Source: Mesostigma viride
Taxonomy: Eukaryota; Streptophyta; Mesostigmatophyceae; Mesostigmatales; Mesostigmataceae
Length of the DNA: 64,000 bases
Direction: 5' to 3'
NCBI GenBank assembly: GCA_009746045.1
Contig: RPFO01000253.1
Span: 62,001 to 126,000 of the forward strand
Numbering within the stretch: position 1 is the stretch's first letter; each line of letters begins with the position of its first letter. A program made the translations under genes and the position numbers. The notes below the pieces were generated by a model. The model worked only from the letters and a program-made list of their open reading frames with translations, had not been told where the DNA came from and ran no database searches. Of the stretch, positions 13,725-63,000 are shown one piece after another.

Positions 13725-14586
13725 ATGTACGGGTCCTATTGGGCAGATACGAACATACTCGTCATTCGGTACCGGCACCCCTGGTTTGACCCAAACATGT
13801 TCGGGTTTGAGTACAGTACCGAATATTTGATAGATATTGCCGTTCTGGCCGATGGAATTGTGTCATCTCTTGGCAGGATCAACTTGGCTGCTAGAAAGTT
13901 TTCAGGCATCGACTCAATCGAGGCTGTGAGCGTCCAGCTCTACGGTTCAGGGACGGCGCGATGCGTCAAATTCAAGTTCTTCACTGTAGTATCCGATGGA
14001 TAATCAAGCTTACAAACATGAGTATATATATCATTCTCAATGAATATGTATATACGGACGGGTGGTGGTATATTCAGTACGCACTCTCATTCGTGTACTA
14101 CTGAGTACGGGGTTCGGTCAGACCGTACCAACCCGGACATACTCGGTATATCGGGTACCGGCGACCTTGGCGGGACCCGAACATGTCCGGGGTTCGGTAC
14201 CGGGTGACCTGGACAGTACTCGGTGTGGGGTTCGGTCATCCCAGGAACCGAGTAGCCCAGCCCTAGCGACAACGTCACAGCAATCCACTGTTGACGACCT
14301 TTGTGAGGCGATGGAAAACACGCCATCTGGCTAGCTCGCAAGTCAAGCGCGTCTGTCCACCCTCCTACAGGGTAGCAGGCTGATACGAAGAATCATTTGG
14401 CTGCAGAGTACGAATACTGAAGATTTCAGATTTTTATAGAAGCGACACTTGCCAGCATGCCCGGACCGGTTCCAGCATGTACATGGCCCCACCCTTCCAA
14501 AACCTGGCCTCACCACCCACAAAACCAGCCCTTAACTCTCGCAACATGCCACTACCCCACCTCTCGCCACATGCCACGGGCCTCAC
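13725..14586. other. Array flank and start of NAA35 intron 3; no coding sequence seen
   Basis: Unique-looking sequence between the satellite and the last visible NAA35 exon. Two stretches (about 13,765-13,825 and 14,149-14,255) share a loose vocabulary of CGGTACCGG, CGAACATGT and GGGTTCGGT, suggesting an older decayed repeat. At 14,028-14,045 ATCATTCTCAATGAATAT also occurs in reverse complement near 26,530. Nothing resembling later NAA35 exons was found here. Confidence 0.5.
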
Positions 14587-15994
14587 CTCTCGGAACGCGG
14601 CGCGGCTGACAGCTGAGCGGATGATGGCACATAGCGCGCGCACGGCGGCGCAGTAAGCGGCCAGGACGCGGTTGCCGCTGGCGTACGCAGGGCGCAGCAT
14701 GTACACGCAGGTGAAGACCGACTGGGCAAGAGAATGGCCGCGGTGCCAGGCCGCCTGGGAGCGCACGGGGAGGGTGCAGGGGCACAGTCAAGGTGCCAAC
14801 AGTGCACAAACATAGTGAATGATGGGTACAGGGAATGTGGGCTATGGTGTGCATGAGTATAATGAGCGTGAGTATAATGCGCGGGGGTACTCTGCATGGG
14901 GTACGGGGTACTATGAGTGGGCCACATCGAAGTGGGGGCAAGCGGACGGTCCGGCGGATTAGTGGCAGTACTGTGGACAAGGAGCAGGCGCACACAGAGT
15001 GGGAAACGGCTTCTTGAGCATCTGGCACGGGTAAGCATGTGTTTTTTTGCTGATGCTATTGAAACGGTTGTACTAACCATATCAATAGCATCAATACGGG
15101 AATGTGTTTCCAACATGTGGGTACGTTTGCACGTATGTAAGGCTAAGCGGGTGGCGGATGCACGTGAAAATCCAGGGTGCACGTCCTGATTGCAAAACCA
15201 CCTGCTTACGCATGTTAGCACATGCACCAAGGTACACAAATATTGCGGTGGGTTTAGTCTGCCATATAAAGATATTCTAGGTCATCTAGTCGCTCTACAC
15301 GTAAGCCAGCCATAATTTCAATGCACAAGGCTACACATTTCCATCTCCATTCATATTCATCATCCTGAACGACTCGAAAACGCGGACAAGATAACGGCAG
15401 GCTCGAGCTACCATGGTCCGGATTCTCCCGATCTCTGGCCTGCGCTGGTTGTCTCCTTGATATTCTACTATGTTTCAATCCCATGCAGGGTGCAATATTT
15501 TCACCTCTTTAGCGACCAATTCATCCATGACAAGGATGAGCTGTGGGCCCGTCAAATTCAGGGGTGCATGCCCGCTGGCTATCACTTCCTCGGGATTTTG
15601 ATATCCTCCGGTGTACACCCCTGCATCCATTTTCGGGTCCATAATTTCCAGCGCTGACATGGCATCGAACATGCTGAAGCCTTCGCCGTGTATCAGCTGT
15701 CCCACAGCCATATCTGCTCAGCGGAGTCGTAAAGACATCAAACAACCAGGTTTGTCACCAGATGCAGAAATCGCAGGGAAGCGCGAGAAACAGCACAGCA
15801 TTCCGAGGATTTACTACTATCAAGAGTACGTCAAAAGAGTAGGATGGCGAGGCTGCCCATTCAAACGACAAGCAGTTGTCAAGGTTAAGACCGTAAAAAC
15901 AGGGCGATGGTCGAATAATTGCCAACTCACCATCGCAAATCTGTTTAAGAAAAGTGGTGCAGTCTGTCCAGCCCGACGACTGCTTTCCCTCCAT
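14587..15994 (-). CDS. NAA35: N-alpha-acetyltransferase 35, NatC auxiliary subunit (5' part only)
   Basis: NAA35/Mak10 is the auxiliary, ribosome-anchoring subunit of the NatC N-terminal acetyltransferase in the cytosol. Three coding exons are visible on the minus strand: 15,994-15,931 (ATG at 15,994), 15,713-15,505 and 14,754-14,587, giving 147 residues with matching phases and GT-AG borders. Exon 1 joins exon 2 through a split Asp codon. The family signature is clear: VGQLIHGEGFSMFDAMSALE at residues 25-44, followed by IMDPKMDAG, then AAWHRGHSLAQSVFTC at the start of exon 3. The family is usually about 700 aa, so roughly four fifths is missing. A donor (GAG|GTGAGG) follows exon 3, but no further exon is seen before the satellite. 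Either the remaining exons lie beyond the array or the gene is cut. Intron 2 holds a dispersed repeat copy. Confidence 0.9.
15279..15462 (+). repeat. Dispersed repeat, copy A (in NAA35 intron 2)
   Basis: A segment of about 184 bp that recurs almost unchanged at 44,530-44,718 and, for its second half, at 23,467-23,566. All three copies share AGCTACCATGGTCCGGATTC and GAACGACTCGAA. All are in the same orientation on the plus strand. It has no coding content and I recognise no terminal repeats. It is probably a fragment of a larger mobile element. Confidence 0.85.
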
Positions 15995-16791: not shown

Positions 16792-19700
16792 ATGACTACG
16801 GAAGAAAGCACGCAGCCAGACCAGGCTGCTGGGAACGGCGAAGGGCCTCGAACGCAGGGACCAGAATACGATAAATTCTTTACAGCTGATCAATTGAACA
16901 CGTTTTATTCGCGCACAGAGAAGCCGGAGCTAGGATTAAGGTGGGTTGCCAACTTTCGTATGCTGCCTGCTGCTTTCCCACTAATTAGTTTGGCTACTGC
17001 TGCCCACTACCACGTTCGAATTCATCACACAGCCCTTCGAGTACAGCCGACACCCATTGTTATAGAGCGCACTTCAAGGCTAGCGATTTCGTAGTATTTT
17101 CCCTCTTTCGGCTTTTGGCCTTTAGTCACGAAGACGATGTGTTCTTTGCAGAGCCTATAGTCGCACGGACGACTGTCGCGACCCCAGTGCCCCTGACGAC
17201 TTTCAATCCATGGTGGCATCGGAATCTTGAGATAAACCCTGGACTCGGTGGACTCCTCTGAATCTGTTCACAGGAATGATTTTGTCGTGCAAAGTCCGTG
17301 GAACGGTTTAGCCTGTACTTTTCATGCTGCATCGCCTGACTTTACTCTTTTTCCCCGTATGGCACAGCACCAATCGTGCTTTGCATACTGCCCTCCTCCA
17401 GTCTTGGCTGGTAGATGAGGCTCTTTCCTTGTGCCAGTGTCCCGTTCCGTTCGCCCTCCCTCTTCGCCCCCTACCCCCTTCCCTCCCCTACCCCGACCCT
17501 CTGCCCCCTCTAACATCCCCCGTCCGCTCCTACTCCAAAGGTCTCCCTGTTTTCCTGAGCGCTTTCCCAGCCTCTAACATCCCCCGTCCGCTCCTACTCC
17601 ACAGGTCTCCCTGTTTACCTCAGCGCGTCCGCTCTTACTCCAGAGGTCTCCCTGTTCACCTCAGCGCTTTCCCAGCATGAAGGGGCTTGCCAGTCTGCCC
17701 TTGCCACGTTAGTTAAGGCGCTATCCTGCTTTGGCTCACAGTTCCTTTGCATGTCGCTGTCTGTTCCCCTGCTGCGCTCCGCCCTCCCCAACACACGTCC
17801 TGCCTACCACACACACAAGCATGCTCCCCCCCCCCTCCCTCCTCCCCCCACCCCCTCTCCTCAACAACCCACACGCACGTAACCCCCTGCAGGTTCCTGT
17901 CACAAGTTTTGGACCTGCAGGAGTACCAGACGGATGCACACTCTGCGATCATACTCGACTACTCGGTCGGCATGCTGCTGTATGTGGTGGCCCTTTACGG
18001 GATGGGTGTTGGTCAGCATGGTGCTGTACGTGGTGAGATAGCCTGCTCTGGGCTCTGGTGATATCGTATTAGTATTAAAGCTAGGAACTATAATGGTATG
18101 TGTGTGTGTGTACCGTGTGGCTGTGTGATTGGATGGTGTCTATGTTTCCTGGTGCTGCGTGGGTGGTGCAATGAGATGATGTGTGTGTGGCCTGGCGGCT
18201 GTACGTGGCGGCACACCATGTCCGTGTCTGGTGATGATACGCGTCTGGAGTTGTATGCCACAAAGTGGCCACCCGTGTATCTGCTATAGTTTGCCGGCTT
18301 TGTGGGATTGTTTGGTCACATGCGGTGGGCATCACCCAGTTTTGGGCGGAACGGGCCGCGGCGATTGGCGCACTGGCTTTTACAGCCACAGTGGAGGGAG
18401 CCTGCAATTGGTAGGCAGTGGAAGCAGACATGGAAAGCGAGAATGTGAGGGTCATGCCGCCGTGAAGCCTGTTGTGTTTGGAAAGGAAAATAATGATGCA
18501 GGGGGAGGGGGGGGGGGGAGGGGGGGGGGGGAGGGGGAGGGGGGAGGGGGGGGGGGGAGGGGAGGGGGGAGGGGGGGGGGGGAGGGGGGAGGGGGAGGGG
18601 AGGGGGGAGGGGGGAGGGGGAGGGGGAGGGGGGAGGGGGAGGGGGGAGGGGGGAGGGGGGGCCGAAGAGGGGGACACATCCTGCTAAATGTTTTCTGAGC
18701 AGGTGCAAGCCATCTGTATTGTTGGTGGAGGTACCGCAGTTGTGGAGGAGTTCTGGCAGTTTGGCAAGATTTGGGGCAAGTTTCGTTCTTCATGTGTAGG
18801 CTTGCCAATACCCACATTCCATGTGGACATGTACATCTGCCTGCCCAACTGCACGAGCTTTCATCGACCCCATCATTTTCTCCTGCTTTCTTCTCGTTGC
18901 TTATTGTGTCCGCCCATGTGCTTGCTTGTCCATCTGCGTGCATCTACGTGCTGCAGGTTCTGCCAGCAGCACTCGATGGACTTTGAGCAAACGGCGGTGA
19001 TCTTCTCGCTGGGTCGACGCGTGCTGTCATGTATATCAGGTGGGTGGATCATGGTTGCATCATGGGTGGGTGGCGGGTGGTTGCGTTGCGGATTGGTGGT
19101 GGGTGGCTGCATCGTGGGTGAGCCGTGGGCGGCTTCACCCTAATTTTGCTGCGCCCGCTACCGTTCATGATCTCTGCATCTTTGGCCCAGACGGATTCTC
19201 CTGTTGACCTATCTCGACCCGCCTCCTCCCTCGCTCCCCCCCTTACACCTCCCCCCCCACTGTCGCAGGCGGCGGCAACTTTGCAGCCACGGAGCAGCTC
19301 TTCCGCCGCCAGCTGCTGCCGCTCTGCTCCGCACACCCCAAGCCTGGCACACCGCACATCTTTTCGTCGCTGGAGGTCAAGCTGATCGTGGACTGGTTTG
19401 CCGAGGGGTGAGTGAAACGTGCGTGCTGCTGGAGTGTGGAGGGGTGAGGGGGGGGTGCGCGGCTTCTTGCTGAGGGGCCAGCATCTGAGGGGCCGTCTGC
19501 CATGGGTTTGCTGATGGGTAAGTGGGCAGGAGGCTGCTGCTGGCTGCTGCAGCTTCGCAAGGCAAGCACCCAACATTTATAATGACCAGTATAGTGACCA
19601 ATACTAAGGCAACCCCTTTTCTTTGCCAGATGCATGAGATGATGCGCTGCTGGGTTAGCGAGGGGTGACCAAGCTCCATTATTCCAATAAAGCTACTTTG

Positions 19701-21976: not shown

Positions 21977-21989
21977 CCCCCATATATAT

Positions 21990-22072
21990 TAAAAATATAA
22001 TTACTTACAGCAGAGTGAAATCACTCAAACCAAAGCAAACGCCCAGCTATAAACCTATATACAGAGCCATGT
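21990..22072 (-). mobile_element. 83-bp 5'-truncated LINE tail with target-site duplication
   Basis: This insert is bounded by CCCCCATATATAT on both sides (21,977-21,989 and 22,073-22,085), a 13-bp target-site duplication. Read on the minus strand it matches the last part of the insertion at 40,509-41,074: GGTTTATAGCTGGGCG, GTTTGCTTTGGTTTGAGTGA and CTGTAAGTAATTA, ending in an A/T-rich tail. It is therefore a severely 5'-truncated copy of the same non-LTR family, made by target-primed reverse transcription. Confidence 0.9.
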
Positions 22073-22135: not shown

Positions 22136-24320
22136 CCCTCGCAACTTTCAACGTACGCACATTGCTAGCTAGCAGATAGCGACCATAGCTACCGGGTGGA
22201 GGAGCTTGTTGCCTAGCTTCTGCATTGCACGTCGTGTGTCTATTCTAGGCGTGCAGGAGCATCGACGCACGGCGCCTCCTGGCACGGTGCTCACTGATCC
22301 GGCTTGGCATGCAGGCGGTTATCATTTTTACTTTGCTGGTAGTGGGACGCCAGGCCAAGGGGGCGTTGCATGTCCTTTTGTGTTTGCCGCTGGCAGCTGC
22401 CAGCCTGTAAGCACGCTGATGGTTTTAACCCCACGCCTTATATGGTGGCACATTTCACCTTAGTTTATAGGGGCGGTCTAAGCACAACCGATCGAGGTCA
22501 CGGTTGGGGTGGCTATGCACCCCATAGTGGCTTGCCACAGCTGGAACGCCAGAAGTTCTTAATTCGAGGACTTGCATAACCCTGAGGGGGCCACCCCGGC
22601 CCGCCACTTCTTTGTTATGCATGCTGCTTGACGCCAACGCCACGCTCCCCGTGGGCACTGCTGGCAGTCGCTTTGCGCCTGCCGACACGGCTGCTAATGA
22701 CATGCAACGCCTCCTTGTTTTCTGCCTTTTTACGGGATACCGGATGGTTGCTGTCAACTGCCACTTCCACCGTCCCTCACAGGACTTGGTCACTTTTCGG
22801 GGCCCTAACAACCGTCAGGCCTGTCTGGACTACGTGGCGGGTACGGCAGCCCAGGTGCGCTTCGGTTCTGGATACCCGAGTGTTCGTGCACCCACGGTGT
22901 GCTCTGACCACCGGTTGGTGCGTGCGACCATTCGGCTCCGGTTCCAGGCCACCGAGCGCCGCGCCCTAGTAACCTGTCCTGACTGGACTGCGCTACGTAC
23001 GCCCGGTCCGTGGGGATCCTGAGGACTGGACGGACGCCCACCACGAGCGGAACAGGTGCCGGCAGGCGTACCTGGCGGCCCTGGACGCCCAGGCAGACGT
23101 CGACGCGCTGGCCCAGCAGGGTGCTCCCAACGCTGCCATTTTTGCGGGCTTTGCGGCCCGCACCCCGTTGCTGCATGGCGGCCCGGCACCTGCCGGCCAC
23201 GCCCCGCCGACGCCCGGCCCGGCCTCCTCTGCCACCAGGACCCAAAGGTCTTGGCCCCCCGGCACCGCCTACTGTACCTCAAGCGTAACCGGGACCCACT
23301 GCTGAAACCGGTGCTCAAGGCCACCCTTGTGGAGGCCTACTGACATGCTCAGGATGCAGTGGCGGCCCTGCCGAGTGCATCGCGGATGCCAAGGCCTGCC
23401 ATCCTTAAGCTCGCAACCAGCCAGAGCAAGGAAATATATGTTGAAATATATGTTGCCCACCCCTCCTCCTGAACGACTCGAAAACGCGGACAAGATAACG
23501 GCACGGCTCAAGCTACCATGGTCCGGATTCTCCCGATTGCTGGCCTGCGCTGGTTGTCTGCTTGAATTATGTTGCGCACCCTCCCGTATGTTGCCCTCCC
23601 TCCTTCTCGTTGTGTATATAGGGTTGCAAGGGTTTCAAGGACCAGCTTACCCGAGGTCGATCATGGGCCTGGTAGCTTGACGTAGTTCTAAGTGATCGAG
23701 TGGGTGCCAGTTGCCACCGCCTTCCCCACTCACGGGACAAGGCAGCTCCCCCACCAGTCCTGCTCACCTTCCCCTCGATATCCCCTGAGGACAATCAGCG
23801 GTTCCCAGTTTCTCGTCGCAAGAGGTTGCACGACCTCACCTGGATGCTGAACGAGGACCTGCCCCCCGCTCAGCATGCAGCAGCGACACGACCTGTGGCC
23901 GGAATACCTCCGCCACAAGCAGGACCCCCAGAAGCCGAAGGTGTACTGGAAAGGTTGCTGCACACCGATGAGTTGCTGGCCGACCTAGTGGTCCCAGCTA
24001 AGTTTGAACACCGCATTTCCTCCGGCCATCTCTCTTGCTTGGACTGCTATGTGCACAGAACAAGAAGAGGTGGCAGACGATCGTCCAGGCCCACACGCCA
24101 GCGCCGGTGGGCAAGCCCCCCCCCCCAGGAGGAAGGGGCGCTTTACTGAGTAGAGTAGTTAGGATTTTCTAGATTACCTTAGAATTAGCTTAGAGTTAGC
24201 TTAGTTTGGTTTCGCGGCTCCGCCCACCCCCATGCATCCAGCAAGGAATACGTGCTACACATGTGAAGCTCCCGGCAACGGAGTTATGTAACTATAAATT
24301 AATTTAATTTTAATTTACTG
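22136..24320 (+). pseudogene. Decayed LINE with APE-type endonuclease
   Basis: Remains of a non-LTR retrotransposon in several frames. The start (about 22,140) reads LATFNVRTLLAS, then GVQEHRR, the usual opening of an apurinic-type endonuclease. Further on, NCHFHRP, FRGPNNRQACLDYVAG and SDHRLV (about 22,740-22,940) complete the domain. The reverse transcriptase is missing or unrecognisable. The 3' end (about 23,960-24,150) encodes ADLVVPAKFEHRIS and IVQAHTPAPVGKPPP, matching the C-terminus of the element at 42,116-43,680. The tail reads CGGAGTTATGTAACTATAAA followed by TAATTTAATTTTAATTT. A dispersed repeat copy and a short insert interrupt it between 23,466 and 23,670. Frameshifts and stops make it dead. 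Confidence 0.8.
23467..23566 (+). repeat. Dispersed repeat, copy B (inside LINE remains)
   Basis: This 100-bp stretch matches the second half of copies A (15,279-15,462) and C (44,530-44,718), sharing GAACGACTCGAAAACGCGGA with copy A. It lacks the first half. It lies inside the LINE remnant. Confidence 0.85.
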
Positions 24321-29421: not shown

Positions 29422-32400
29422 TTACTGCGGCGCACTGGGCGTGAAGCTGCGGTCGATATCCTCCTGCAGCCGTTCCAGCTGGCGCTGCACCAGCTTGGTC
29501 AGGAACCGGACACCCATCAGGGACAGGCCAGGGAGCAGCGCCTGCATGAGCGGCAGCAGCTCGCCCGCGACCCGCCGCGCCTCCCGTAGCTCGGACACGG
29601 CGAGAGGGCGTGCGGCAGCCACGCCTGTCTGCTGCACCAACTGTGGCTGCACCAGCTTCCAGAGGCGCTGGAGGACATCCAGGGACTTGCGGTCCTCCTC
29701 CGTCAGGGAGCCCCTGGCCACCCGGCCATTGGACAGCAGCAGCCCCGGGAGCAGGATGGGCCACTCGCCCTTGTCCCCCTTCGGCAGGATGCCTTGGCCA
29801 ACCGCCAGGGGCAGCCAGGGCGCCACAGCGGTCACCGCGAGTCCTGACAGGAGCGGCGTCAGCAGGGGGCCAGCCACCCCGGTTGATGACTTGCTGCCGG
29901 AACGCCCACCGGTGGTCACGGAGATGGCCGCGGTGGCAATGGAGCGCCACAGCTCGGCGCGGGCCTCGCGGCTGAGGGCATCCACCGCCCTCACGAGCTC
30001 ATCCACGAGAATCTCCTGGACGTAGTTGCCCTCTTGGGAGAAGGTCAGCTGGAGCACCTCGCGCGTGGCGGGGTCTAGAAGCGGGGCGCCCGACGATGCC
30101 GACATTGCGGCCGACACTGGCAACAAGCCGCTGGGATTTGCATTCGACGGACCCAGATCATTCCCATTCCCATTGCCCCCAGTGGATCCATTCACTGCAG
30201 ATTGTGATGGCGCAGGAGTGGACGATGGGGGTGCTGCTGCCCCCGCCCCTGGCGCCGTCACGGCTGACGTGGCGCCAGTCCCCATGAGCACCTCGGACGC
30301 CGACTGGAACTTTGTAAAGTAGCCCGCCAGCTCCTCGAGTCGGTCCACGTCCAGCTGGTCGCCATCCTTGTAGAGCGCGTAGCGCAGCGCGGCGCGCACG
30401 CGCGGGTGGTCGTCCGTGAGCAGTCGCTTAGCCATGTACGGGAACGTCTCGTAGGTGATCGAGTAGTTGGGGTCCTGCGCCAGCCCGATACCCTCCAGGG
30501 TGCCGAACGCGCGCAGGACGATGGTGTACCTGGAGGAGTCAAGGACAGTTTGAGGGTGGACCATTGAACAAGCGCAGCGAAGGAGATGAGAGGAGCTTGC
30601 GAATATGTCTAAATACGCATGTGCTTCATGGGAAGTTTACACATGTGAGAACTAGCAAGTACACCCCACCCGGGATATGGCATCGTGCAGTGTTGGTTGT
30701 CACCCTTTATACATGTTCATGCTTCCATTGTGAGCGCGGCCACGGATGCTTGCGGTGCAATCCGGCTGCCAAATCCAGAGAATTAAACTAAGCAAACGGA
30801 AGTGCAGCCAACTGAGAGCGACTATCAACATGCCCTTTACTACCGCATCTACCTTCTGGGATGGCTGCGTGCTGCGAGCATCACATTGCATTGCTCTACC
30901 AAGGCGATACCGTGGCGTCGTACGAGCGCTGTCAATGCGCTAGAATAATTGTGCTATGGTTGTGCTGGCATCCTGCACGTACCAGCCAGGCAACCGCAGC
31001 GGCACCTCCGACCCCAGCTTGTCGACATCCGCGCCAAACTTGGTGAAGTCCACCCCTGCGGCGCCGCCCCCCGCCATGAGCTGCCCCAGTATCGCCTGCA
31101 GGATGTCCACCACCATCTGCCGGTGCTGGTCCACGAAGTCCCTGGGCACAAAGCCCAGGGTGACCACATCGTCGGCGACCTTGTCCCAGTCCTGGTTGAT
31201 CAGGTGCCCAATGTACTCTGTGGGCCGTGTGGACCAATGGATGTGACAGAAGGAAGTGAAGGATGATGGGTGGGCAGGCATTAGTGAATGCCTGATGTAC
31301 TCTGCGGTTGGGTTGGACAAAGAGGATCTGACAAAACAAGGAGCAGAGGAAGGAAGAGAAGTTGGATGCATCAGTGTCGGGGATGGGCGGGTAGTATCAC
31401 ATGGGATGAGCCATGGAGGGCTACTTGATGCGATGCAAATGGCTATTTTGATGTAGGGAGGGGCCTGTGCGTTTCAACGAGGGATACGTGCCTGTGTGAC
31501 ATGGCAACCGATCCACGGGGTGAACGACTCGGGCGAAACAAAAAAACTTTTCGAACAAAAAAGACTTTTCGAACACTACGCGCTTCCCCTGCCTGTCTAT
31601 CCACAAACAGCACGAATTGTTCTGTCACCCACAGTAGGAAAGTCGCACTGCCATGCCTGCCTCCCTTTCAAGTCTCGACTGGCAACAACCCTTGAAACCA
31701 CCTGAAGGGTGGTTGCTTTTGCGTGGCCATCGCCTGCTCACCAATGAGCGCAGAGCACTGCTGTGAAACGTGAAAGTGACCCTTTGACATGAAGGTGACC
31801 ACTTTCAAAGGGGAGCACGATGACCGCATGGGCATCAACATGAAGCCACGGATAACACTGCTGCGAAACGTGAAAGTGACCCCTTTGACATGAAGGTGAC
31901 CACTTTCAAAGGGGAGCACGATGACCGCATGGGCATCAACGTGAAGCCACGGATAACACGCGTCCTGGCCTATCCACCCACGAGCCAGGGCGGTTAAAAG
32001 CTTTACATACAGCCAGTGAGGACTTTATAAAACGCGCAGCCTTTGCCCACTCGTACACACCATGCGCCACTGTCGGCCACTCACCCACATGCAGTTGGCG
32101 CCAACTGACCATGAGCGCGACTACTGAGATTCCAATACCACCACCTAGGGAACGCTCAACATAAGGGCGTTTGCCAACTTGTGCAGGGCATGCGGAGAGA
32201 TTGCCACTCTCCCACGACTGAACCCAAAAGGGTAATACCACATGAAGAATATATATTAAAAATATAATTACTTACAACAGAACATGAAGAATATATACAC
32301 ATCCCCCACCCCCCACTCACCCACCAGCACATCGATCAGGTCCAAATGTAGCCAACGATCCAATCGCAGCGGGCAAATCCCATTACCGATGCCAGCTGGC

Positions 32401-40495: not shown

Positions 40496-40508
40496 TATAT
40501 GTCTGGCC

Positions 40509-41074
40509 CCCAACCACCGGCCTGACATCGTGGTGCTGGACTTTGAGGGGGGTGGCCGGCATCTGCTTATTGACGTTTCGGTGGCGCGGCCCTTGGCTCT
40601 TAGCCACGTGGCTGGGGCCTCCCTCACGGCAGGTTACACGGCGGACCGGGCGGAGCGGGCCAAGCTCCTGGCCTACGGCGACGTCGGGCACCATCGTGTG
40701 GTGCCCTTTGTCCTGGAGGAGTTTGGGGCCATGGGGCCCCTGACCTCCGCCTTCTTCAAGGAGTGTTGCCGGCTCCGGGAGGACCGGCTGGACCTGGAGG
40801 GCCAGCGGGCCCCATGGTCGGCGCGGACCTGGACGTCATATTGGCGTCAGCGCTTGTCGGTGGCGCTGACTCGGGCCATGGCTGACATCATGCTCCGCCG
40901 TACGCGGGCTGATTTTGCGGTGCAGCAGGGCTATTAGGTTCCTCCCGTTAGGCGTTTCCATTGGTCTTATCGTAGTATAGAGCTTTGACATGGCTCTGTA
41001 TATAGGTTTATAGCTGGGCGTTTGCTTTGGTTTGAGTGATTTCACTCTGCTGTAAGTAATTATTATATTTTTAA
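40509..41074 (+). mobile_element. 566-bp 5'-truncated LINE insertion with target-site duplication
   Basis: Flanked by TATATGTCTGGCC at 40,496-40,508 and 41,075-41,087, a 13-bp target-site duplication. An uninterrupted frame from the 5' border to a stop at 40,935-40,937 encodes the C-terminal part of a LINE polyprotein: PDIVVLDFEGGGRHLLIDVS, AERAKLLAYGDVGHHRVVPF and LRRTRADFAVQQGY. The 3' UTR ends GTAAGTAATTATTATATTTT plus TAA. The open frame and clean duplications suggest a fairly young insertion. Shorter copies with the same tail occur at 21,990-22,072 and 32,256-32,281. Confidence 0.92.
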
Positions 41075-46202: not shown

Positions 46203-49021
46203 ATGGAGGTTAAATTATACACCGACAGAGCTGAGCGAGAAAAATATGAGAGCTTGGCGGATTTGTTCGCGATTATCAAAACTACAGAAAAGCTGGAGCG
46301 AGCGTACGTCAGAGACGCAATTACTCCCCAGCAGTACGAGCCGGCCTGCTACGACCTTATTGCAAAGGCAGGTGTTCGCCCCCTTTGCTCTTCCCGCATA
46401 CCACCGCCACCTCGCTTCTCCTTGCCCCCCCGCCCCGGCGACAGCTTAAACCAGAAAAGCTGACACCCATCTGCACGGCCTTGCCCAACCTACCCCTTTG
46501 CCTGCTCTCCATGCACATGCACACTTCAAAATATTCACATCAAACTACGTCACCTTGCCCACGCTACTCCACTAGCCTGCGCTTGCCCTCATGTTCTCTT
46601 TGTTCCCACGCACCAGCAGCAGCCCGCCCAAGGTGTAATGCAGGCAGTCATCGACACAAGTATTCAACGTTGCGCCCTCCCCCCCCCCCCTTGCCTCCTC
46701 TCCATGCACACTTAACAGTTCGAATCACTAAAACAGAGGGTCAAAACTCCACCATCTTGCCCACCCTTCTCGCCCTTTTTTATCTTTTTATCCCACCCAT
46801 CGGCAAATTTCCAAGACACTGAGCATGCGCTCGATTACACAACAAGATGACATCAACATTTTCCTAATCCAACCCCGTAGATTGCCCCCCCCCCCCCTGC
46901 CCCCCCCCCCAACGCCCCCCACCCCCGTTTTGCCTTCTCTCCAACCTCATGCAACAGTACAAGACGATTGCCCCACTTGCCTCCTCCCTTGCCTCCCCTT
47001 CCCTTATGTTCCCTTCGACCCTATGGCCCGCGACGTTTTAACAGCTCAAGCAGTCGCTAGACACCTATACATGATGCTGCCCGCCCCCCATCCACCACAT
47101 GCCTTTTTTCCATGCACGTCCATTATTCAATACGCTAAAACAGACGCTCTCCTCCCCTTTTCCCCTTATCGCTCTGCCTCTCCTGCCGTTATGTCCCCTT
47201 CGACTCTACCACATGTGACAGTTCGATACACTGAAACAGACGATTAGTTACACAGTTACATGATCTTGACCCCTCAGCCCCCCCCCCCCCCCTGGCATCC
47301 TCTCCATACAGGGCCAACAGTTCAGAAAGCTAACGTGCATGCTTACTCCAATTCAACCACCTTTCCCATCCTACCTGGCTACCCCCTTGCCTCCCCTGCC
47401 CCTTGTGTTGCTACCCTCTTCCTCCCCTGCCCGTTGTGTTCCGCTGGGTGACAGTTCAAGACGCTGAAGCAGACACTCAACTACACAACGGACGACGTTC
47501 AGCACTTCATGTCTGAGTACAACATGCGGTGCCCCGCCGCCGCCAACCGGCTGCTGGTCTCCACCGTGCCCGCCACGCTGGAGCATGCGAGGCCCAGGCC
47601 GGCGGACGCCACCGCGCTCAACGTGGCCGAGGCCGTGCAGGTGGGTGCCGGCATCCGTCACGCAGGTGGCTGGATTGTGGACTTGCAGCGTGCATTTGGC
47701 GCATTGTGATGGCGCTGGATGGCGGTGTCCCCCTCTTGTTGGCATCCGCCACGCAGGCATGCGGGCCGTGTGCTTGTGTGAAACAGGTCGTCTGCTTGTG
47801 TGAATTGGGTTGTGTGCTTTTGTGAAACAGCCAAACAGGAAATACGTTACTTGGGTATGAAGCGTCCACGGGGGTCCAGGGTGGTGGCACTGCGGGGCGT
47901 TTACCGCGTGCTTCACCTCGGCACGTGCATGGTTTCATTCCTAGTTAGAGATACATTGTAGTTGGATTAGAACATTTATATTAGAACAGTTATATTAGAA
48001 CAGTCGGGGACCTTGACACCTGTGGCTGCGCGTTGTCGGACGCTCTGTGACTTTGCAACGATGTTCTCCGCCTATGCATGGTGCTCCTGGGGTAGGGTGC
48101 GGGGTGGCCAGAGTATGTTGTTTCCTGGATGAATTCGGGGGGGGGGGCAGGGGGGCTGAGTGGTGGGCTGGGGGGGGGGGGTGGATGCATTTTCTCTAAT
48201 GGAGAGTGGGAGGGGTGCTGATGTTATGGACTTTTGGGGGGGCGCGTAAACACAAGGGGGTGCGGGTATGGGCGAATGGGGTATGGGTGTTGTTGGGGGC
48301 GTGCCTTCTTGTCAGATTCCCCCTTCCCTCACGCTATCATTCATACATCCCAGTGCCAGGGCCATTTTGTTTCTTATTCGGTACGTACCGGGCCCGATCC
48401 GCCTACACAATTCAATGTGTCCCCTGCCCCATGCACCGTGTCGCAGATGTGCCCTTTCATTTGGCCTCGCTGCAGCACTTCATCATTGGCCACAATCCGC
48501 GGGCCGGCTTTATGCTCGCATTTCCCCGCAACGCCTTGTGCATACCGTCACCCCTTCCCCTTTCTTGCAGCACTTAATCACTGCACTTGCTGACCCGTTT
48601 GTTTGCTTGCACTCCCTTCCCACTTTTGGCCCACTTGCAGCAGTTTATTACTACGATGGATCGCCCATTTGCTGCCCTGTCTTATCCTGGCATCCACCCC
48701 TCACTGTCTCGTGTATACCCCTCCCTCTTTGGCCGCTTGCAGCATTTCATCACCGCGATGGACAACCTGCGCTTGAACATGGTGGCGGTGGACCAGGTGT
48801 ACCCGCTGCTCAACGATCTGCTCCAGTCGCTCTATAAGGTTCCGCAGCTGCCACCCAATTTTGAGGGGCGGGAAAAAGTCAAGGGGTGGATCGCCACACT
48901 TAGCAACATGCGGGCCAGCGACGAGCTGACAGAGAGCCAAGTGAGGGAGATGCTGTTCAACCTGGATAACGCGTATAACGCGTTCATGTCAGCACTGAAC
49001 CTGCCCACGGCGGCGCACTGA
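46203..49021 (+). CDS. VPS28: VPS28, ESCRT-I subunit
   Basis: Three exons, 46,203-46,367, 47,455-47,640 and 48,743-49,021, give 209 aa, the usual family length. The protein is a core subunit of ESCRT-I, which sorts ubiquitinated cargo into multivesicular endosomes. The N-terminal half shows EVKLYTDRAEREKYESLADL and FAIIKTTEKLERAYV (residues 2-36); residues about 120-209 form the C-terminal four-helix domain that binds ESCRT-II, with LNMVAVDQVYPLLNDL and ASDELTESQVREMLFNLDNA, typical of plant and algal VPS28. Intron 1 seems to use a rare GC donor (AAAG|GCAGGT): with it the join reads LIAK|FKTL, as in plant VPS28. A GT donor five bases further (GCAGGT|GTTCGC) would add Ala-Gly. Both introns (1,087 and 1,102 bp) contain decayed copies of the following exon's start. 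Confidence 0.96.
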
Positions 49022-53300: not shown

Positions 53301-56300
53301 ATCATGCCAGTTACTACAGTAGCTATCATGCCAGTTACTACAGTAGCTATCGTGCCAGTTACTACAGTAGCTATCATGCCAGTTACTACAGTAGCTATCA
53401 TGCCAGTTACTACAGTAGCTATCATGCCAGTTACTACAGTAGCTATCATGCCAGTTACTACAGTAGCTATCATGCCAGTTACTACAGTAGCTATCATGCC
53501 AGTTACTACAGTAGCTATTATGCCAGTTACTACAGTAGCTATCATGCCAGTTACTACAGTAGCTATCATGCCAGTTACTACAGTAGCTATCGTTCCAGTT
53601 ACTACAGTAGCTATCATGCCAGTTACTACAGTAGCTATTATGCCAGTTACTACAGTAGCTATCATGCCAGTTACTACAGTAGCTATCGTGCCAGTTACTA
53701 CAGTAGCTACCATGCCAGTTACTACAGAAGCTATCATGCCAGTTACTACAGTAGCTATCGTGCCAGTTACTACAGTAGCTATCATGCCAGTTACTGCAGT
53801 AGCTATCATGCCAGTTACTACAGTAGCTATCGTGCCAGTCACTACAGTAGCTATAGTGCCAGTTACTACAGTAGCTATCATGCCAGTTACTACAGTAGCT
53901 ATCATGCCAGTTACTACAGTAGCTATCATGCCAGTTACTACAGTAGCTATCATGCCAATTACTACAGAAGCTATCATGCCAGTTACTACAGTAGCTATCG
54001 TGCCATTTACTACAGTAGCTATCGTTCCAGTTACTACAGTAGCTATCATGCCAGTTACTACAGTAGCTATCATGCCAGTTACTACAGTAGCTATCATGCC
54101 AGTTACTACAGTAGCTATTATGCCAGTTACTACAGTAGCTATCATGCCAGTTACTACAGTAGCTATTATGCCAGTTACTACAGTAGCTATCATGCCAGTT
54201 ACTATAGTAGCAGAGACTATGTGACGGCTGAAGCCGCACTGCACCATCTCCACAACGATGTAGAAGTCACGCCAGGACGAGCGGGCGAAAGATGCTCTCT
54301 TGGCAACACTACACAAGTAAAGTAAGGTTCACCATGCATGCTTCTAACTAGATGGCGGGAGGGATCAGCCTCTTCTCCTGACGGAAACGCATGCCTTAAT
54401 CCCACCGGCGGTGGACACGTCCGCAGCGCCCCACCTCAATCTTGGAGACACATGAAGCGTGGAACCTCGCTTCGGCCGCCTGCACGCGCGCCAGAATCTC
54501 TTTCTGCGCACACAGAAGACGACGAGTAGAGAACAGGCAAGGGCCCGGGACATGCGCATGCAATGGAAACAGCCGCATGCGAACCTAGTGAGAAACCACT
54601 TGAGCTCCTGTGCATGCGTCTGTGCATCAGACCGTTCACGCCAGCTCCCCAGCCATGCTGTTGCAGCGATGCATCCCCTGAGCATGCTGGCCGGCCACCA
54701 TGCATAGAGCGAGCAAGAAAAACCATGTGAAGCAGTCACGCGCTCTTGAGAAAAGAGGACTATGTGCATAACAGTACCCGCTTCCCCCTCCCGGCAGTAC
54801 CTGCCTTCCCGTCCCCTACCCACCAGGATGTATACACTTGCCTCAGCTCCCCCCCGCCTCCCCCACCCCCACCCGGGTCCTCCCCTCCTCCTACCTCTCC
54901 AAGCCTTCCCCCCCTCATCGCTACGTCGTTTCCGCTCTCCTGTAATGTCCTTGCTGAAGTTTCCCCAATACACCACCTGCATCGGCTTTGGCCCCCGATA
55001 CCTACCCTCCCTTCCCTAAGAACACCTCCTGCCCTCCTTTCACGTCTCTTGCCCTCTTTCCTCACCTCTTGCCCTCCGGTCACATCTCATTCACTAACGT
55101 ACCTCTCCTCGATCCGCGACAAGCTTCTTGCACATCTCCTCCATCCGCTTGGGCTTCCCCTTCTTGCACTCCTCCAGCTGCGATTGGACGCTCTCCATCT
55201 TGCTGTGCCACTTCTTGCTCTCAGCCTGAACCTTCTTCAACTCAGCCTTTGGGTTCGGGCACGCGCACGTGCCCCTGGTGAGGGGGGAAGGACAAAAGGC
55301 ACAGGGGCAGCGGGGCATATTCACGGCGCACTTCAGCATGCTGCACATTATAAGTTCTTGCTGAAGAGATATCCAACGGCTTGGGAGGGGTCACAGGCAA
55401 CTCAGAAGTCTGAACGGGAAGCTGATGAGGGGTATGCCACAGTATAGTCTTATGGGAATGTGTGAAGCGAAGTGCTGAAGGACCTGAGTAGCAAGTAGTG
55501 ACCCATTCGATGATGCCATCAACCGGGTGAATACTATCAACACATGCACATGGGGTCATCGTGCGCCCATCTCTTGCCCTCACGAAGGAGAGGCCACGAG
55601 ACACCACACGTGTGCCCCAGCAGCAAACCCACGTGTCGATAGAACTGAACAAGCCACTGAGCAAGAAACTATTGCATTACACTCTACAATACATATGAAC
55701 TACAAGGCACACACCCAACCCAACCCAACCCACATGTTGCACTCAAAGAGCTGCTGCCGTGTTGCACTCACACTCTATACTGTAGGACACACACACTCTA
55801 TACACCGCAGGACACACGGTTTACTATGCAGACTACTATGCACCCACATGTTGCACTCGTAGAGCTGCTTCTCCAGCACCGCCACCGCATTGGCCTTGTT
55901 GGCCACGTCGCGCTCGTGAGTCACCTTCTGCAGGTTGTGCAGGCGGACCTGCTCGTCCAGGCTGTTCTTGAGGCTCTGCACACGGTCCCGCAGGCTGTGC
56001 AGCTCACGGTCCAGCTGCTCCTCCCATTTGAGATCCCAGGCCTCCCTGCGGGCAGGAGTCGGGGAAAAGTTGAAAACATGAGCCATGGGAACATGATGGA
56101 CCACATAACTGAAAATCTTATGGAAAGTAGGGGTAAAAAATGACATACAGATGCAACAGCACATCAAGATCGACAAAAATGTGGGACAGTGAACGAGACG
56201 TCACAAACGTAAGAGGTAAGCACTGTGAAGGATGTGTCAAGGGCAATGAAGGCATCAGATGCGCATGGCCGCATGGCGGCAGGGCGGCAGGGCGGCAGGG

Positions 56301-59078
56301 CGGCAGGGCGGCAGGGCGGCAGGGCGTGATTATAGAAATTTGGACGATGCATCGGGCCAGCAGTGGGGCACCGGTCATGCTGAGATCCTCTCAAACCCAT
56401 CACTAAGAGCATGATTATAGAAATTTGGACAATGCATAGGGCCAGCGACGCTCTGCTGGCCCGGCCAGCGACGCTCCCTCCACCTGGGCGGACCTGCTTA
56501 AGCACCACACCACCTCCACCACCTCCACCATCGCGGCACAGCTCAAGCAACAAGCACTCGACCTTCGGGAGGAGGCCGAGCTCGACAAGCGCAGCCACAA
56601 TGTCATCGTCAAGCACTTCGACCAGCCGGCAGACGAGACCCCGACGAGTCTTCTCACAGCATTTAAGCGCGACATTCTTGCCCCCATGCTACTCACAGGT
56701 GAGCTGCGGATGTCGGCTGTCCGCCTCCCCCGCGCGCGGGGTAAGGCTGGCCCGGCACCCGTGCTCCTCACCGTTAAGTACATGGCGGACAAGCTGTCGC
56801 TCCTTAAATGCCGCAAGAAGCTCTTGGGGACTTGCTTCACGCTGGACGACGACTTGACCCTGGCCCAGCAACAGCGACGACGCGAGCTATGGCCGACCTA
56901 CCTTCAGCTCCGGCAGAGCGCAGGGGGGAAGCCGGTATACTGGAGGGGGGCGGTCATCCATGTTGACCATAAGCCCTGGCAGGCACCTCCTGCCACCCCA
57001 GCAACCTCAGTCTAGGGAATATATACCAGTAGTGTAGATTAGTCAGGCTTAGCCTAGCATGTGGCCTACGCGCATGTGCGCCCATAATTGCCCCCATGGA
57101 TGATGCCTTCAGAATTAAGCCAAGCCATGCATGCCTATAATGGGACCCCCCATGGATGCTGCATTAGGAATTCAGCCCTGCAATGCCTATGCAGAGAGTC
57201 GCTCTCTGTTGAGAAGCCATGCCCTAGCTCTCTTATAGCCATGGTGATCTTCCCCCCCCATGACAGGCTCCCCTTAGCTGGGTTGAGCTTGATAGATCGT
57301 GGTGGTGCAGGTGCCCTTGGTGCACCTAGAGCAAGTGTTGTTTACATTCCCACCCTTGCAGGAAGTAGCTTAGAATGTATTGAAAGCCATATGCCCCTTC
57401 TCTGGGATATGTGCTACATACACTCCCAACGGAGTTATGTTCCTAATCAATTAATTAATTAATAGGGCCAGCAGTGAGGCACGGGCCATGCTGAGCTCCT
57501 CTCAAACCCATCACTAAACCTACAAGCCCGATGTAAGACTAGTCACCTCGCTTTGCCTGGGTTTGCGTGTGGGGAGAGGCGCTGCCCCCTATTGATGAAA
57601 CCTGCTGGCGCTGCTATCTACTACACGTGGGGAGATGCGCTGCCCCCTATTGATGAAACCTGCTGGCGCTGCTATCTACTACAAGTATGCGCGATGATGT
57701 CAGCAATTGGAATGCCCGCATGCTTGTTCATGCACGTGCCCTGCTGTGGGTTCATGGTGAACTGCTAGGTCTCTTGCCCTTCCCTTGACCTTTCACAAAG
57801 GAGCATGGAAGCTGTACTCCACACTTGGCCCCAAGTGAAGAAAGGGCCCTGTACATTTGGACCTTCACGGTGGCTGCCTTGGGAAGACATAGCGGATATG
57901 GTACGGATGCCTTGCGAAGCTACAGCATGTGATACGTATCCGAGGCTCACCTCTCCAGCTTGATGAGGGCAGAGCACTCTGGCATTTCCTCCCTGCAAGG
58001 CCCACGCCGCCCGGCCAAGAACATAGGCACCGGGGCAAGTTGTACCATGATAAAAAATGTATCAGCAGAGGGGCTAGCACACTGTGCAGACTGTGCCCGT
58101 GGGGGGGGGGGGGGGGAGGGGGGGGGGGAGGGAGGGAGGGAGGGAGGGAGGGAGGGAGGGAGGGAGGGAGGGAGGGAGGGAGGGAGGGAGGGAGGGAGGG
58201 AGGGAGGGAGGGAGGGAGGGAGGGAGGGAGGGAGGGAGGGAGGGAGGGAGGGAGGGAGGGAGGGAGGGAGGGAGGGAGGGAGGGAGGGAGGGAGGGAGGG
58301 AGGGAGGGAGGGAGGGAGGGAGGGAGGGAGGGAGGGAGGGAGGGAGGGAGGGAGGGAGGGAGGGAGGGAGGGAGGGAGGGAGGGAGGAGGGAGGGAGGGA
58401 GGGAGGGAGGGAGGGAGGGAGGGAGGGAGGGAGGGAGGGAGGGAGGGAGGGAGGGAGGGAGGGAGGGAGGGAGGGAGGGAGGGAGGGAGGGAGGGAGGGA
58501 GGGAGGGAGGGAGGGAGGGAGGGAGGGAGGGAGAGAGGGAGGGATATGCACCGACTGATGGAATGCGCAAATGACTTATCAACATTAATGCTTCCTTCCG
58601 ATTCTCCCCCCTGCCCCCCTTCCCTCTCCCCCCCACCACCCACCCCCCCCGCCCCGCGCCCCCTATCTCTCTCACGTCATATATAATGCAGTAGGTTTCC
58701 AGTACGTACTCGAGAGTCGTGCTGATAGGCAGCACCAGATCTTGCTTTTAGCGGGCTGTAGTAAGCCTTGCAGAATCGAGAACATGTTAAAAGAAAGGTA
58801 AACCCATAACCCACTCATTATACGTAACTCGCCCGCCGGAAACACAAAAATCTTTAAAGAGGCCAACACTGCACCTACCTCGGATCGTATCTCAACATCC
58901 AAATCCATGACAGGAAATAGACTTACTCCATGGCTGCCATTGAAAGACTTGTCGGTTTCTCAGGAGGCTGAGGGTCGGCTTCTGTTGCGAGAAGTATGTG
59001 TATCAACAGAAACATGGAGGCGCAACCGCCGACAACCCATGGTGCTACTTTCTTGAATTTGCGAGGGATCTGTGCCAT
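50366..59078 (-). CDS. Membrane-anchored coiled-coil protein with acidic Gln/Glu/Gly tail, unrecognised
   Basis: Nine exons fit together in phase into 486 aa: 59,078-58,927, 57,992-57,951, 56,045-55,848, 55,274-55,103, 54,503-54,435, 54,298-54,203, 51,709-51,677, 51,340-51,275 and 50,998-50,366. Residues 12-31 (APWVVGGCASMFLLIHILLA) are a membrane segment after a basic MAQIPRKFKK start. Residues about 52-210 are coiled coil (LERREAWDLKWEEQLDRELH, ADRGEKEILARVQAAEARFH). Residues 277-486 are acidic, low-complexity and rich in Gln, Glu, Gly and Ala. I do not recognise the family. A single-pass membrane tether is an inference. Introns hold (GGGA)n, a LINE insertion, a 14-bp repeat and a 2-kb satellite. 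Least certain points are the acceptor of exon 6 (GCCAAG|AGAGC) and its donor, GTAACT at 54,202 or GTCTCT at 54,217. The start could also be upstream within 59,156. Confidence 0.7.
51556..51626 (+). repeat. 14-bp tandem repeat in coiled-coil gene intron 7
   Basis: Five copies of AGGCACCAAGCCAA with small variants, inside the 336-bp intron between exons 7 and 8. Confidence 0.9.
52250..54202 (-). repeat. 24-bp satellite filling coiled-coil gene intron 6
   Basis: About 81 copies of a 24-bp unit, GTAACTGGCATGATAGCTAC then TGTA on the minus (sense) strand. The main variation is at one or two positions (ATCATG, ATCGTG, ATCGTT, ATTATG). The period is eight codons without stops in several frames, so open frames of 650-750 codons run on both strands; I read these as artefacts. 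The array begins exactly at the preferred donor of exon 6. Confidence 0.95.
56274..56324 (+). repeat. 8-bp microsatellite (GGGCGGCA)n
   Basis: Six copies of GGGCGGCA in intron 2 of the coiled-coil gene, just upstream of the LINE insertion site. Confidence 0.9.
56447..57461 (+). mobile_element. 1,015-bp 5'-truncated non-LTR insertion with 11-bp target-site duplication
   Basis: Bounded by ATAGGGCCAGC at 56,436-56,446 and 57,462-57,472. A continuous frame from the 5' border to a stop at 57,013-57,015 encodes TWADLLKHHTTSTTSTIAAQ, a helical stretch, then LTVKYMADKLSLLKCRKKLL, FTLDDDLTLAQQQRRRELWP and GGKPVYWRGAVIHVD. This looks like the nucleic-acid-binding ORF1-type domain of L1-like elements (inference). 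A 440-bp 3' UTR ends TCAATTAATTAATTAA. It interrupts a host segment (GGCACNGGNCATGCTGAG..CTCTCAAACCCATCACTAA) that also occurs intact at about 56,363-56,406, next to the insertion, so that host segment was already duplicated. It lies antisense in intron 2 of the coiled-coil gene. Confidence 0.9.
57569..57684 (+). repeat. 58-bp tandem duplication
   Basis: Two almost identical copies starting GTGGGGAGANGCGCTGCCCC and ending CTACTACA, in intron 2 of the coiled-coil gene. Confidence 0.92.
58100..58544 (+). repeat. (GGGA)n microsatellite, about 445 bp
   Basis: Preceded by a short poly(G) run. About 105 GGGA units with a single phase break (GGAGGA near 58,386). It lies in intron 1 of the coiled-coil gene, so the transcript carries the polypyrimidine strand. 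Confidence 0.98.
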
Positions 59079-60011: not shown

Positions 60012-63000
60012 ATGACCCTCGCTTCGGGTGATGCCGCAGGGGAAGGCGCGGGAGTTGTTCTGTTTGACTGTTGTAAGAAAGGTGTGCCAATTACCTGTAG
60101 TAAACCCAGTGGAATATTTCCAGGTGATATAATTTATGCGTCGGTTTACTCAGAAAATGGCAAGAAGATGTGCGAGGCAGATACACTGATGAGCGATTCA
60201 ACTCAGCGACTACTGTAGCATAACGAATGCCTACGTGCCTCTTATGGTGTTCCGTGTAACAGAAACCCACACGCACAAGCAAGGATTCAAACAATTGTTT
60301 CGAAGACTCCGTGGCACTTTCAAGCCAACAAGGTAAGCCAAGCTCAATCGCTTCAAAGACGATGAACCTTACTAGGAATAATTACAGCTATGTCGTTGTA
60401 ACGGCTTGCGCCATCGCCAGTCTTATCCATTGGTTGCTTGATGCGCCCTCCCAACTTGACTTGCCCATGTACACACAATATTCGGCATGGAGCGCCTGCC
60501 GCGGGCCTTCGATGGGCCGGTTGGGGAATATCTTTGTATGACAGGGGTTACGAAGGGGGAGGGGGTGGCGCACGCGGTTGGGGGACATATATATGCTCTG
60601 AAATCTTCAAATAATTAAGAGCAAGCAGAAGCTTGGGGCAATCTCGTTGACAGGGCACCTTTGATCCCAAGCTGCGAGGGACACTTGGGAAACGCTCTGC
60701 CGAGTGTTTCGTGGCATCTAGTGCCTGGTGTTGCTTCACGGGAGAAACGGTGTACGTCATGGCTGCACGGAGATAAAAGCTGCCACGTGTCCACATCTTT
60801 CTGTGGCAGCGATGGGCACCCCTGCCCTTGCCAATGGCGTGCCTGTTTAGGGCAGCCTCGCTGCCTAATGCGGGCCATGTGATTTCCGTCTTGTGCTTCC
60901 TTTGCCACGCAAGCATTCCCCTGTGTATGCTGGTTCGATGACCGTATCGTGTAAACAACAAATAAAACATCCTTTCTTTTCTTAATGATGGCACAAGGGG
61001 ATAACACAGATAAAGGGAGCAGGCCCTCCTTCTCCCTGCCCCATGTAGCACTTTAGAACTGCCCGTCACAGCTGGCTTCGGCTCAGGTTCCGTGTGCGCA
61101 TCACCCAGGGCATGGCCTGGCAGTCATGAATGTGCTAGACAAGCATATGGCACCAGGCATGCTCATCAATGCTCATCAATGAACCCAGACCGTCAGAGGG
61201 CCCGAAACCAGTATCGTCCATTCGTCCTATCGGAAACTGGCGGCGTCTTCTCGGCCAAGGCTGCTTCTTGAAGAGAAAGCGTTGGGGTCGGGGTGTTTTT
61301 TTTGTTTGGTCATGGGCAAATGTCATCCGTTGGGGACCAGAATGCAGCAGGTACTCTACAAATAATGGATTCTACTATTCATCAGTGTTTATCAAGTGCA
61401 CCCATGAGTCCGTATTAGCCATTTCGAAGGTGCCATAAGCATGCCAAATGTTTGTACCTGGTGAAGAGAGCAATTGTTTCCCAGCAAGCCCAGGAACATA
61501 GGGCTAAAAACGTCGGGTCTTTGTTTCAGCAATCTGAGTGGCAGGTCCATGACAAGTAGCTGGGGGCAGCCCATGTGCAAGGTCACGCTTGTGCTCCTCG
61601 CTATCATCTGTGCCTCCCCAACTTGGTCCACAAGAGATCGCCTCACGTTCCATACTGCCAATCTCTTTGCCCTTCTCCTGCATTGCTGAGCCGTCTTGGG
61701 CGTGTCGGGAACGTGCTGCATCATTTGGCTTGCTCGTCCTGCCACCCTTCCTCGCCTACCCATCAGCAATGAGGAGGAGATCTCCCTTGAGAAGCTCAAG
61801 ACGGCCGCCATCTGTGTGTTCGGCGCGCCGCGAGAGATGTTCACCACAAAAGAGGTGCGAGCCTGCGTGGCCTGCCATGCTATTAGCAGCATACTATAGC
61901 ACAGAAAAATAAGGCATTCTGAGGTCCCTCTTGTCATGGAGGCCTCCCCCCCCCCCCCCCCCCCCCGCCCCTGCGCCCCCCCCCAAGCGTACGAGTGAAA
62001 AGCCATGACGTAGGCTTTTCATGGATACTACTTTCGAGCATACGCATGCTTAAATGGTATGTTGCGAGATGACTCCCCTCCCTCATCTGCGTTACATTTT
62101 GATCTGTCACCGTTATTTCCAAGGAATACACACTTTCACTTGCATGGAACTATGGGTGTTCTAGACCACCTTGATTTCGCTGGCACGTACCTAAAGATTC
62201 CCCCCACCCACCTACCCACCTATGGTATTCCTAATTTGCATCGGGGACCGTCCTGTGCCATGCTCCTCACACTTTTCATCCATCATCCATCGCTGCAACA
62301 CACCAGATCAATGCGATCAAGGACTTTCTCATGGGCGGCGGCTCGGTGCTGCTGCTAATGGGCGAGGGCGGCGAGGCAGCGCTGGGCACCAACCTAAACT
62401 ACCTGACCGAAGAGCTGGGCATCATGGTCAACAATGACTGTGTGGTGAGTAGGGACCACGCGGCCCCCTAGCTACCCCCCACCAATGACTGTGTGATCAG
62501 ACTGTGCTCGTAACTGGCATCTAGCAATGAATACGTTGCGGGTACGAAGCCCTCAATGCTAGCCGGCCACTAGTGACGGTGTGGTGGGAACGGTTAGTTG
62601 CAATGAGATGGAAGAGTGGCAGGGTTGGTGGCAGGAAGGATAGTAGCAGGGCATGATTGGTGGCAGGAAGGGTGGAACATGGGCAGGGTTGGTGGTAGAC
62701 GAGTGACGGGAATGAGGTGGTGGCAAGAGCGATGGTGGGATGATGTCAAGCACCCAGTCAAGTAGTGGGAAAGCGCCCCGGCTTCTGTAAGTTCCTAGTT
62801 CACCTTCAATAGGCTGCCAGATGGCGGTGCTCGTGCTGGCATAGTGTCTCAAGCAGGCCATACCTGTTAACCTATTGACCCCACGACTCGACAGGACAGC
62901 GGCTTTCTTTGGCAGCTCTGCATCCAAGCCAGCGATGGGCTTGGCCAGGCATGGAACTTGAAGACTGATGAAATTTTATCTACTGTGAGTCTAGCTTGGG

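Follow-up and report, generated by a model that had tools for sequence, protein, structure and literature searches.

The stretch analysed here, 64,000 nucleotides of the Mesostigma viride genome (hereafter, the window), is part of contig C667 in an assembly of 439.9 Mb and 2243 contigs; the published assembly is given as 441.8 Mb, with introns averaging 1142 bp (PMC6947507). Six genes of the window were modelled by hand, giving 22 complete introns, and the reading frames of these models are open throughout across all of them; NAA35 is represented by one exon only. Pfam domains were matched for CLAMP, ABC1, VPS28 and IFT52. No Pfam match was obtained for the coiled-coil gene or the NAA35 piece, and both names are labels of the first-pass annotation of this DNA. 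Our subject is the border copies of these genes, i.e., segments of an exon edge with its splice site that recur inside the adjoining intron. We confirmed that these copies are real and that they extend beyond the window, and we argue that they probably arose by short duplications across existing junctions.

Border copies in the genes of the window

VPS28, on the forward strand, carries acceptor-side copies in two introns. Exon 1 (46203..46367) is supported by the gene model and the VPS28 domain, and a Protein Data Bank match over query residues 2-89 crosses its junction. Its donor is a GC donor (AAG followed by GCAGGT): intron 1 appears to begin with GC, not GT (window 46366-46373), the adjoining GT breaking the frame with the exon-2 acceptor. 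This intron (46368..47454) contains decayed copies of the start of exon 2 (47455..47640; gene model, domain and structure alignment) at about 46445, 46627, 46719, 46810, 47037-47071, 47126 and 47222, and weaker ones at 46521 and 46958. The best eight matches score 37, 32, 30, 25, 24, 22, 17 and 15, each above the corresponding k-th-best maximum of 50 shuffles (29, 20, 18, 17, 17, 16, 15 and 14), and the copies at 46445, 46719 and 47222 are directly preceded by CAG. A whole-genome search with intron 1 returned only itself plus matches confined to a C-rich stretch. In intron 2, the true acceptor of exon 3 (most of which lies at 48743..49006; gene model and structure alignment) reads TTGCAG followed by CATTTCATCACCGCGATGGA, and three copies of it occur upstream: CTGCAG followed by CACTTCATCA (48468..48495), TTGCAG followed by CACTTAATCACTGC (48563..48590) and TTGCAG followed by CAGTTTATTACTACGATGGA (48633..48660). 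The exon bases of these copies are not significant alone (scores 20, 16 and 16; shuffle best mean 18.5); all three have CAG in register. The VPS28 protein aligns to solved relatives, and the alignment runs through the junctions that bear copies. Pfam domains likewise continue across junctions of this kind.

Donor-side copies are found in CLAMP (C1a-32, forward strand). Exon 2 (17893..17986), just past which the CLAMP domain begins (residues 82-171), has the true donor TATGTG followed by GTGGCC, and a copy of its end with a donor (GTGAGA) lies 46 bases downstream (18013..18040). Three more donor-like copies are carried by intron 4 (19424..19672; offsets 36, 110 and 257). In ABC1K, on the reverse strand, both ends of intron 4 are copied. 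The true acceptor of exon 5 (30983..31217; ABC1 domain), CCACAG followed by AGTACATTGGGCAC, recurs at an offset of 84 as CCGCAG followed by AGTACATCAGGCAT (31282..31309; flank similarity p=0.01), and the exon-4 donor recurs at an offset of 113 with 9/11 exon bases (32313..32340). The same intron has a 101-bp tandem duplication, 97% identical (window 31756-31959), which indicates that larger interior duplications can also be recent.

The coiled-coil gene, also on the reverse strand, has an exon at 55848..56045 (no Pfam match) whose true donor is TGCAACAT followed by GTGGGT; a copy of the exon end and donor lies at 55726..55753 (offset 114; 20/22 exon bases). Two simple arrays accompany this gene: a 24-bp unit in about 82 copies in intron 4 (window 52250-54211) and a GGGA tetranucleotide in 111 copies (window 58102-58544) upstream of the first modelled exon. 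In IFT52, on the forward strand, exon 4 (62307..62444; IFT52 domain) ends at the true donor ACTGTGTG followed by GTGAGT, and two copies of its end lie at 62476..62591 (offsets 51 and 139), the first without GT.

The first-pass annotation had claimed copies in six genes, and in five of them they hold: CLAMP introns 2 and 4, ABC1K intron 4 (donor and acceptor), VPS28 introns 1 and 2 (acceptor), coiled-coil intron 2 (donor) and IFT52 intron 4 (donor). The sixth, NAA35, is weak. A 25-bp tandem repeat of 2.4 copies does lie at its donor (14536..14596, reverse strand), but its match to the exon, judged by eye, is of only about 6 bases, and this intron stands outside the statistics.

Taken alone and under the strictest test, the window provides thin evidence. 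When 40 exon bases were compared with dinucleotide-shuffled introns, 6/44 junctions reached p<0.05 (combined p 0.097); against pieces of other introns, 9/44 did so (combined p 0.0036). One of the six shuffle-significant junctions, that of ABC1K intron 2, consists of a 10-bp satellite rich in CTGCAG, and for the ABC1K intron 4 acceptor the best-scoring match lies elsewhere than the clear copy at 31301. Seven of the 22 window introns carry border copies by either test, by which we mean that a border copy was called by one of two copy tests.

Border copies in a wider sample of introns

A simple gene finder, trained on the window genes (most of whose exons it recovered, these being the data used for training), was applied to 240 kb of further sequence, of which 20 kb adjoins the window, plus the window's edge. 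The genes predicted outside the window, each with a Pfam match, include a phosphodiesterase, an ion channel, a helicase, SRP54, a penicillin-binding protein, a PfkB kinase, TPR proteins, a PHD protein and a glycine decarboxylase. From 281 predicted block exons, we set aside the 102 that were matched elsewhere in the sampled sequence and 80 lying under a better opposite-strand exon (these flags can overlap), and kept 77 good ones. Introns with a flanking exon scoring below 6 and two IFT52 introns already counted in the window were also removed. The main sample thus comprises 65 introns, 22 from the window and 43 from elsewhere. Tests on 66 introns include one IFT52 intron with a false poly-Q exon, which the 65-intron tests omit. 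One gene (c2) was excluded from the copy comparisons and held-out profile tests and kept in the remaining counts.

We observed that the copies lie on the same strand, in register, and that nearly all derive from the part of the exon adjoining the junction. Indeed, the 30 exon bases beside the donor are copied in their own intron in 14/65 introns (swapped introns 0.2, reverse complements 1), and those beside the acceptor in 7/65 (0.0 and 0); both kinds occur, as the first-pass annotation had stated. Exon bases 30-60 from the junction are copied in 2/63 (donor side) and 2/64 (acceptor side), bases 60-90 in 0/52 and 0/54, and bases 90-120 in 0/45 and 2/48; across all exon blocks, the swap expectation is 0.0-0.6 and the reverse complement gives 0-2. 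In total, the 65 introns contain 28 donor copies (16 introns) and 7 acceptor copies (6 introns), compared with 0.4 and 0.8 copies in swapped sets.

The comparison with shuffled introns proposed in the first-pass annotation gave the same answer: among the 66 introns, 29 donor and 7 acceptor exon-only copies reach the junction, whereas three shuffles pooled give 1 and 3. GT is in register in 20/29 of these donor copies (chance 6.3%), and AG in 5/7 of the acceptor copies (chance 5.1%). Pairs covering at least 8 exon and at least 4 intron bases were found at 15/66 donors and 8/66 acceptors, and none in one shuffle per intron. Exon-base identity is 450/542 for donor copies (arrays included) and 345/435 for acceptor copies (156/195 after subtracting the false poly-Q exon). 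By either test, 27/65 introns have a border copy (20 donor-side, 9 acceptor-side). Where the flanking exons are Pfam-matched, the figure is 18/33, or 14/33 by a single test. In five other stretches, taken unfiltered and so including repeat-like and opposite-strand predictions, 22/114 predicted junctions reached p<0.05, compared with 6 for the reverse complement (300 and 100 shuffles). Introns with copies are longer (median 804 versus 571 bases, p=0.033), although longer introns also give more room for matches.

The youngest case, in which the process is seen fresh, is an intron of the ion-channel gene (locus L023, donor 9173, reverse strand). Its last 12 exon bases and donor recur, nearly identical, at offsets 65, 130, 195 and 260, so that a 65-bp unit starting 12 bases inside the exon is present five times, the donor included, and nearly unchanged. 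The Pfam Ion_trans domain continues straight across the outer junction of this gene.

Origin of the copies

The reading that we prefer, with a probability of roughly 0.6, is that short duplications occurred across existing junctions, were silent since the outer splice site was still used, and then decayed. A duplication unit of about 25-250 bases, as estimated from the distances between copies, would by spanning a junction put a second exon edge and splice site into the intron. The outer site beside the intact exon would stay in use, leaving the messenger RNA unchanged and the intron one unit longer. The inner copy would then be free to decay, and further duplication could extend arrays. Any duplication spanning a donor or an acceptor leaves such an outer site, hence the message need not change; and the exon side would look best preserved because the other exon copy is frozen by selection. 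With the outer site in use, a conserved protein stays continuous. The copies all sit within a single intron, and it is the outer site that serves the exon, which looks like growth of an existing intron. We infer that the event itself is a tandem duplication and that the inner copies, left unused, decay neutrally.

Growth of introns by junction duplication had been proposed in the first-pass annotation, and part of this proposal stands: copies occur on both sides, the outermost site is the one that leaves the protein intact and the introns are longer. An ordered ratchet, in which the fossil closest to the junction would be the youngest, is not supported: in 7 introns with at least two copies there is no gradient, the nearest copy being more similar in 2, the farthest in 4, with 1 tie. 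Nor is the splice core specially kept, for the exon identity given above, measured on a differently selected set, would predict GT in about 69% of donor copies, and 20/29 have it. The further claim that ordinary tandem duplication cannot explain the pattern fails for its clearest examples, tandem arrays that span a junction (the channel gene, 65 bp x 5, and VPS28 intron 1).

Intron interiors carry the same type of copy, a point in favour of duplication. Interior coverage is 10.6% (donor type) and 12.4% (acceptor type), to be compared with the 15/66 and 8/66 junctions above, and in a right-edge test 15/65 donor junctions stand against 9.9% of interior positions. With arrays of at least 6 copies masked, interiors fall to 6.9% (donor type) and 4.5% (acceptor type), and the junction excess has p<0.0001 for donors and p=0.046 for acceptors. 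An excess of about twofold is expected at junctions, since selection holds one exon copy and drift is confined to the other. After this doubling acceptors show no excess (6 seen, about 5.9 expected). Excluding satellite-rich introns sharpens the contrast, to 12/53 versus 4.1%, but this is a biased selection on which we do not rely. A hot spot specific to junctions was rejected, since interiors carry copies too and only a modest donor excess is left after doubling.

Several results weigh against junction-spanning duplication. Acceptors show no excess over unmasked interiors (6/65 versus 9.0%, p=0.46; 8/66 versus 12.4%), and donors exceed even the expected doubling, if modestly (binomial p=0.028). 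Scores at intergenic points do not exceed those of shuffled introns (23/885 versus 17/568, about 3% each), so that any general pressure toward duplication is visible here within introns alone; by these figures, background makes up about half of the interior rate after masking. The flanks of the copies raise a further difficulty. In a held-out test, in which copies were picked by exon bases -34..-9 alone and arrays of at least 4 copies were masked, donor identity is 0.81 at -8..-1, 0.65 at +1..+6 and 0.28, i.e., chance, at +7..+30, without gradient (9 copies, 7 introns). Simulated decay of whole units with exon identity of 0.72-0.79 keeps the flank at 0.38-0.43 at best, and nine chance-level flanks have p 0.03-0.06; simulations with a flank of 0.32 or less push the exon match down to 0.66 or less. 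Moreover, gapped flank similarity is significant in 7/33 hand-picked copies (4/21 donor, 3/12 acceptor), a set that omits three channel-gene rows, and one of the seven, in SRP54 intron 2, may reflect neighbouring copies.

Held-out acceptor copies behave similarly (0.56, 0.54 and 0.29; 6 copies), whereas interior positions (0.47, 0.39 and 0.31; 113 hits) lack the sharp drop. Simulated whole-unit duplications with many indels approach the observed profile, not fully. Among 14 introns with at least two copies, exon identity is 0.78 with the true edge and 0.72 between copies, and flank identity 0.46 and 0.44, values biased by selection on the exon match. True tandem units account for some of the copies; the rest may have arisen as direct repeats at staggered breaks, or may be bounded by the splice site.

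The first of these alternatives supposes staggered double-strand breaks near the junction, repaired with unrelated filler, so that the overhang is left as a direct repeat on both sides and the intron gains filler plus overhang. It would account for most tested copies sharing the exon edge and splice site without the flank, and for the segments between copies, which look unlike any sampled sequence; excerpts of the Daphnia study (PMC4202315) describe it for new introns. As an explanation of the copies here we regard it as unlikely. It leaves unexplained the true arrays of channel intron 1 and VPS28 intron 1, in which the flank recurs as well, and under it overhangs would be expected to end at varying points beyond the splice site, whereas by eye most copies end at about +3 to +8.

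More doubtful still is the idea of a splice-site-limited process that, in this lineage, would copy exon edges into the neighbouring intron repeatedly and independently, with the exon as template and growth coupled to junctions instead of random duplication. Copying or retention tied to the splice site, in which the site bounds the copying step or inner copies persist as decoys or reserves, seems to us improbable. The sharp fall from 0.81 to 0.28 across the site in donor copies, unlike interior positions, speaks for it, but rests on the 9 copies from 7 introns; GT retention is no higher than chance decay predicts, and when splice-site scores are compared pair by pair, the true donor exceeds its copy 20 times, falls below it 8 times and equals it 9 times. 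We know of no biochemistry for such copying, which also counts against it.

Use of the inner copies as alternative exon ends, by alternative splicing, is highly improbable. Some are good donors (the CLAMP intron 2 copy scores 5.05, the true donor 3.7), and 9/15 acceptor offsets are divisible by three, 4 of them contributed by the false poly-Q exon; donor offsets have no such preference (12/32), and in a BBS4-like gene, where a copy was read by codons, most changes alter the amino acid. Chance or low-complexity matching, which a few GTG- or CTGCAG-rich window cases recall, is refuted for the whole set by shuffles, swaps, reverse complements and exon-interior blocks that all stay near zero. A dispersed element was also rejected: VPS28 intron 1 is single-copy genome-wide save for its C-rich stretch, and 16 inter-copy segments had no convincing match in about 300 kb of sampled sequence, the best outside match being a G-rich partial one (E 2.65e-4).

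Related systems and neighbouring sequence

Minisatellites are tandem arrays, as are the youngest border-copy cases; the arrays described here differ in that they begin inside an exon and carry its splice site. A potato gene is described, in the excerpts available, in which tandem duplication across an intron/exon boundary produced a new intron. There too the duplication crosses the boundary and copies splice signals; the difference is that a new intron arose, whereas here an existing intron seems to be lengthened, often repeatedly, with copies in 27/65 introns. In the Rogers model, as given in parts of a review (PMC3443670) and of a Drosophila study that also reports exon duplications (PMC2891723), tandem duplication involves AGGT proto-splice sites. 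The duplicated segments likewise bear splice sites and one copy becomes intron, but the classic duplicated piece sits inside an exon and provides both new sites.

New Daphnia introns have direct repeats from staggered-break repair and, according to the same excerpts (PMC4202315), share with our cases terminal exon bases repeated across inserted DNA, internal repeats and a passive trend toward longer introns. Their exon-end repeats are of 4-12 bp in very young introns, whereas those of Mesostigma are of about 10-50 bp, decayed, in conserved genes and sometimes in arrays. Introner elements, in the excerpted account (PMC9860276), similarly change intron content in a lineage-specific way; they place similar sequences in many introns, and no such dispersed family was found here (one intron searched genome-wide, 16 pieces in about 300 kb). 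Among the matches listed, which left subscription journals mostly uncovered, none described existing introns made longer by recurrent copies of their borders, and the potato and Daphnia papers, as excerpted, are the closest. The mutation types are known, and their role here is little described.

Intron lengthening is usually ascribed to transposons; here, about 4 in 10 sampled introns show signs of local border duplication. Duplication across a border is a class of mutation that splicing can silence. Since selection preserves the exon edge in one of its copies, each such intron would keep a datable record of the duplication event, and from such records rates, donor/acceptor bias and the choice between twin splice sites become measurable genome-wide.

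Other repeats and genes were noted in the sampled sequence. The left end of the window (1-13727) is a 13.7-kb array of a 36-bp GC-rich unit in about 384 copies with 97% match. GC-rich fragments that by eye look like repeated pieces of mobile elements lie at window 22700-23300, 26700-28600, 40500-40940 and 56450-57010 and in loci L012-L019. The penicillin-binding-protein (transpeptidase) gene, spread over loci L009-L011 (C667:1010001-1040000), is divided into many small exons.

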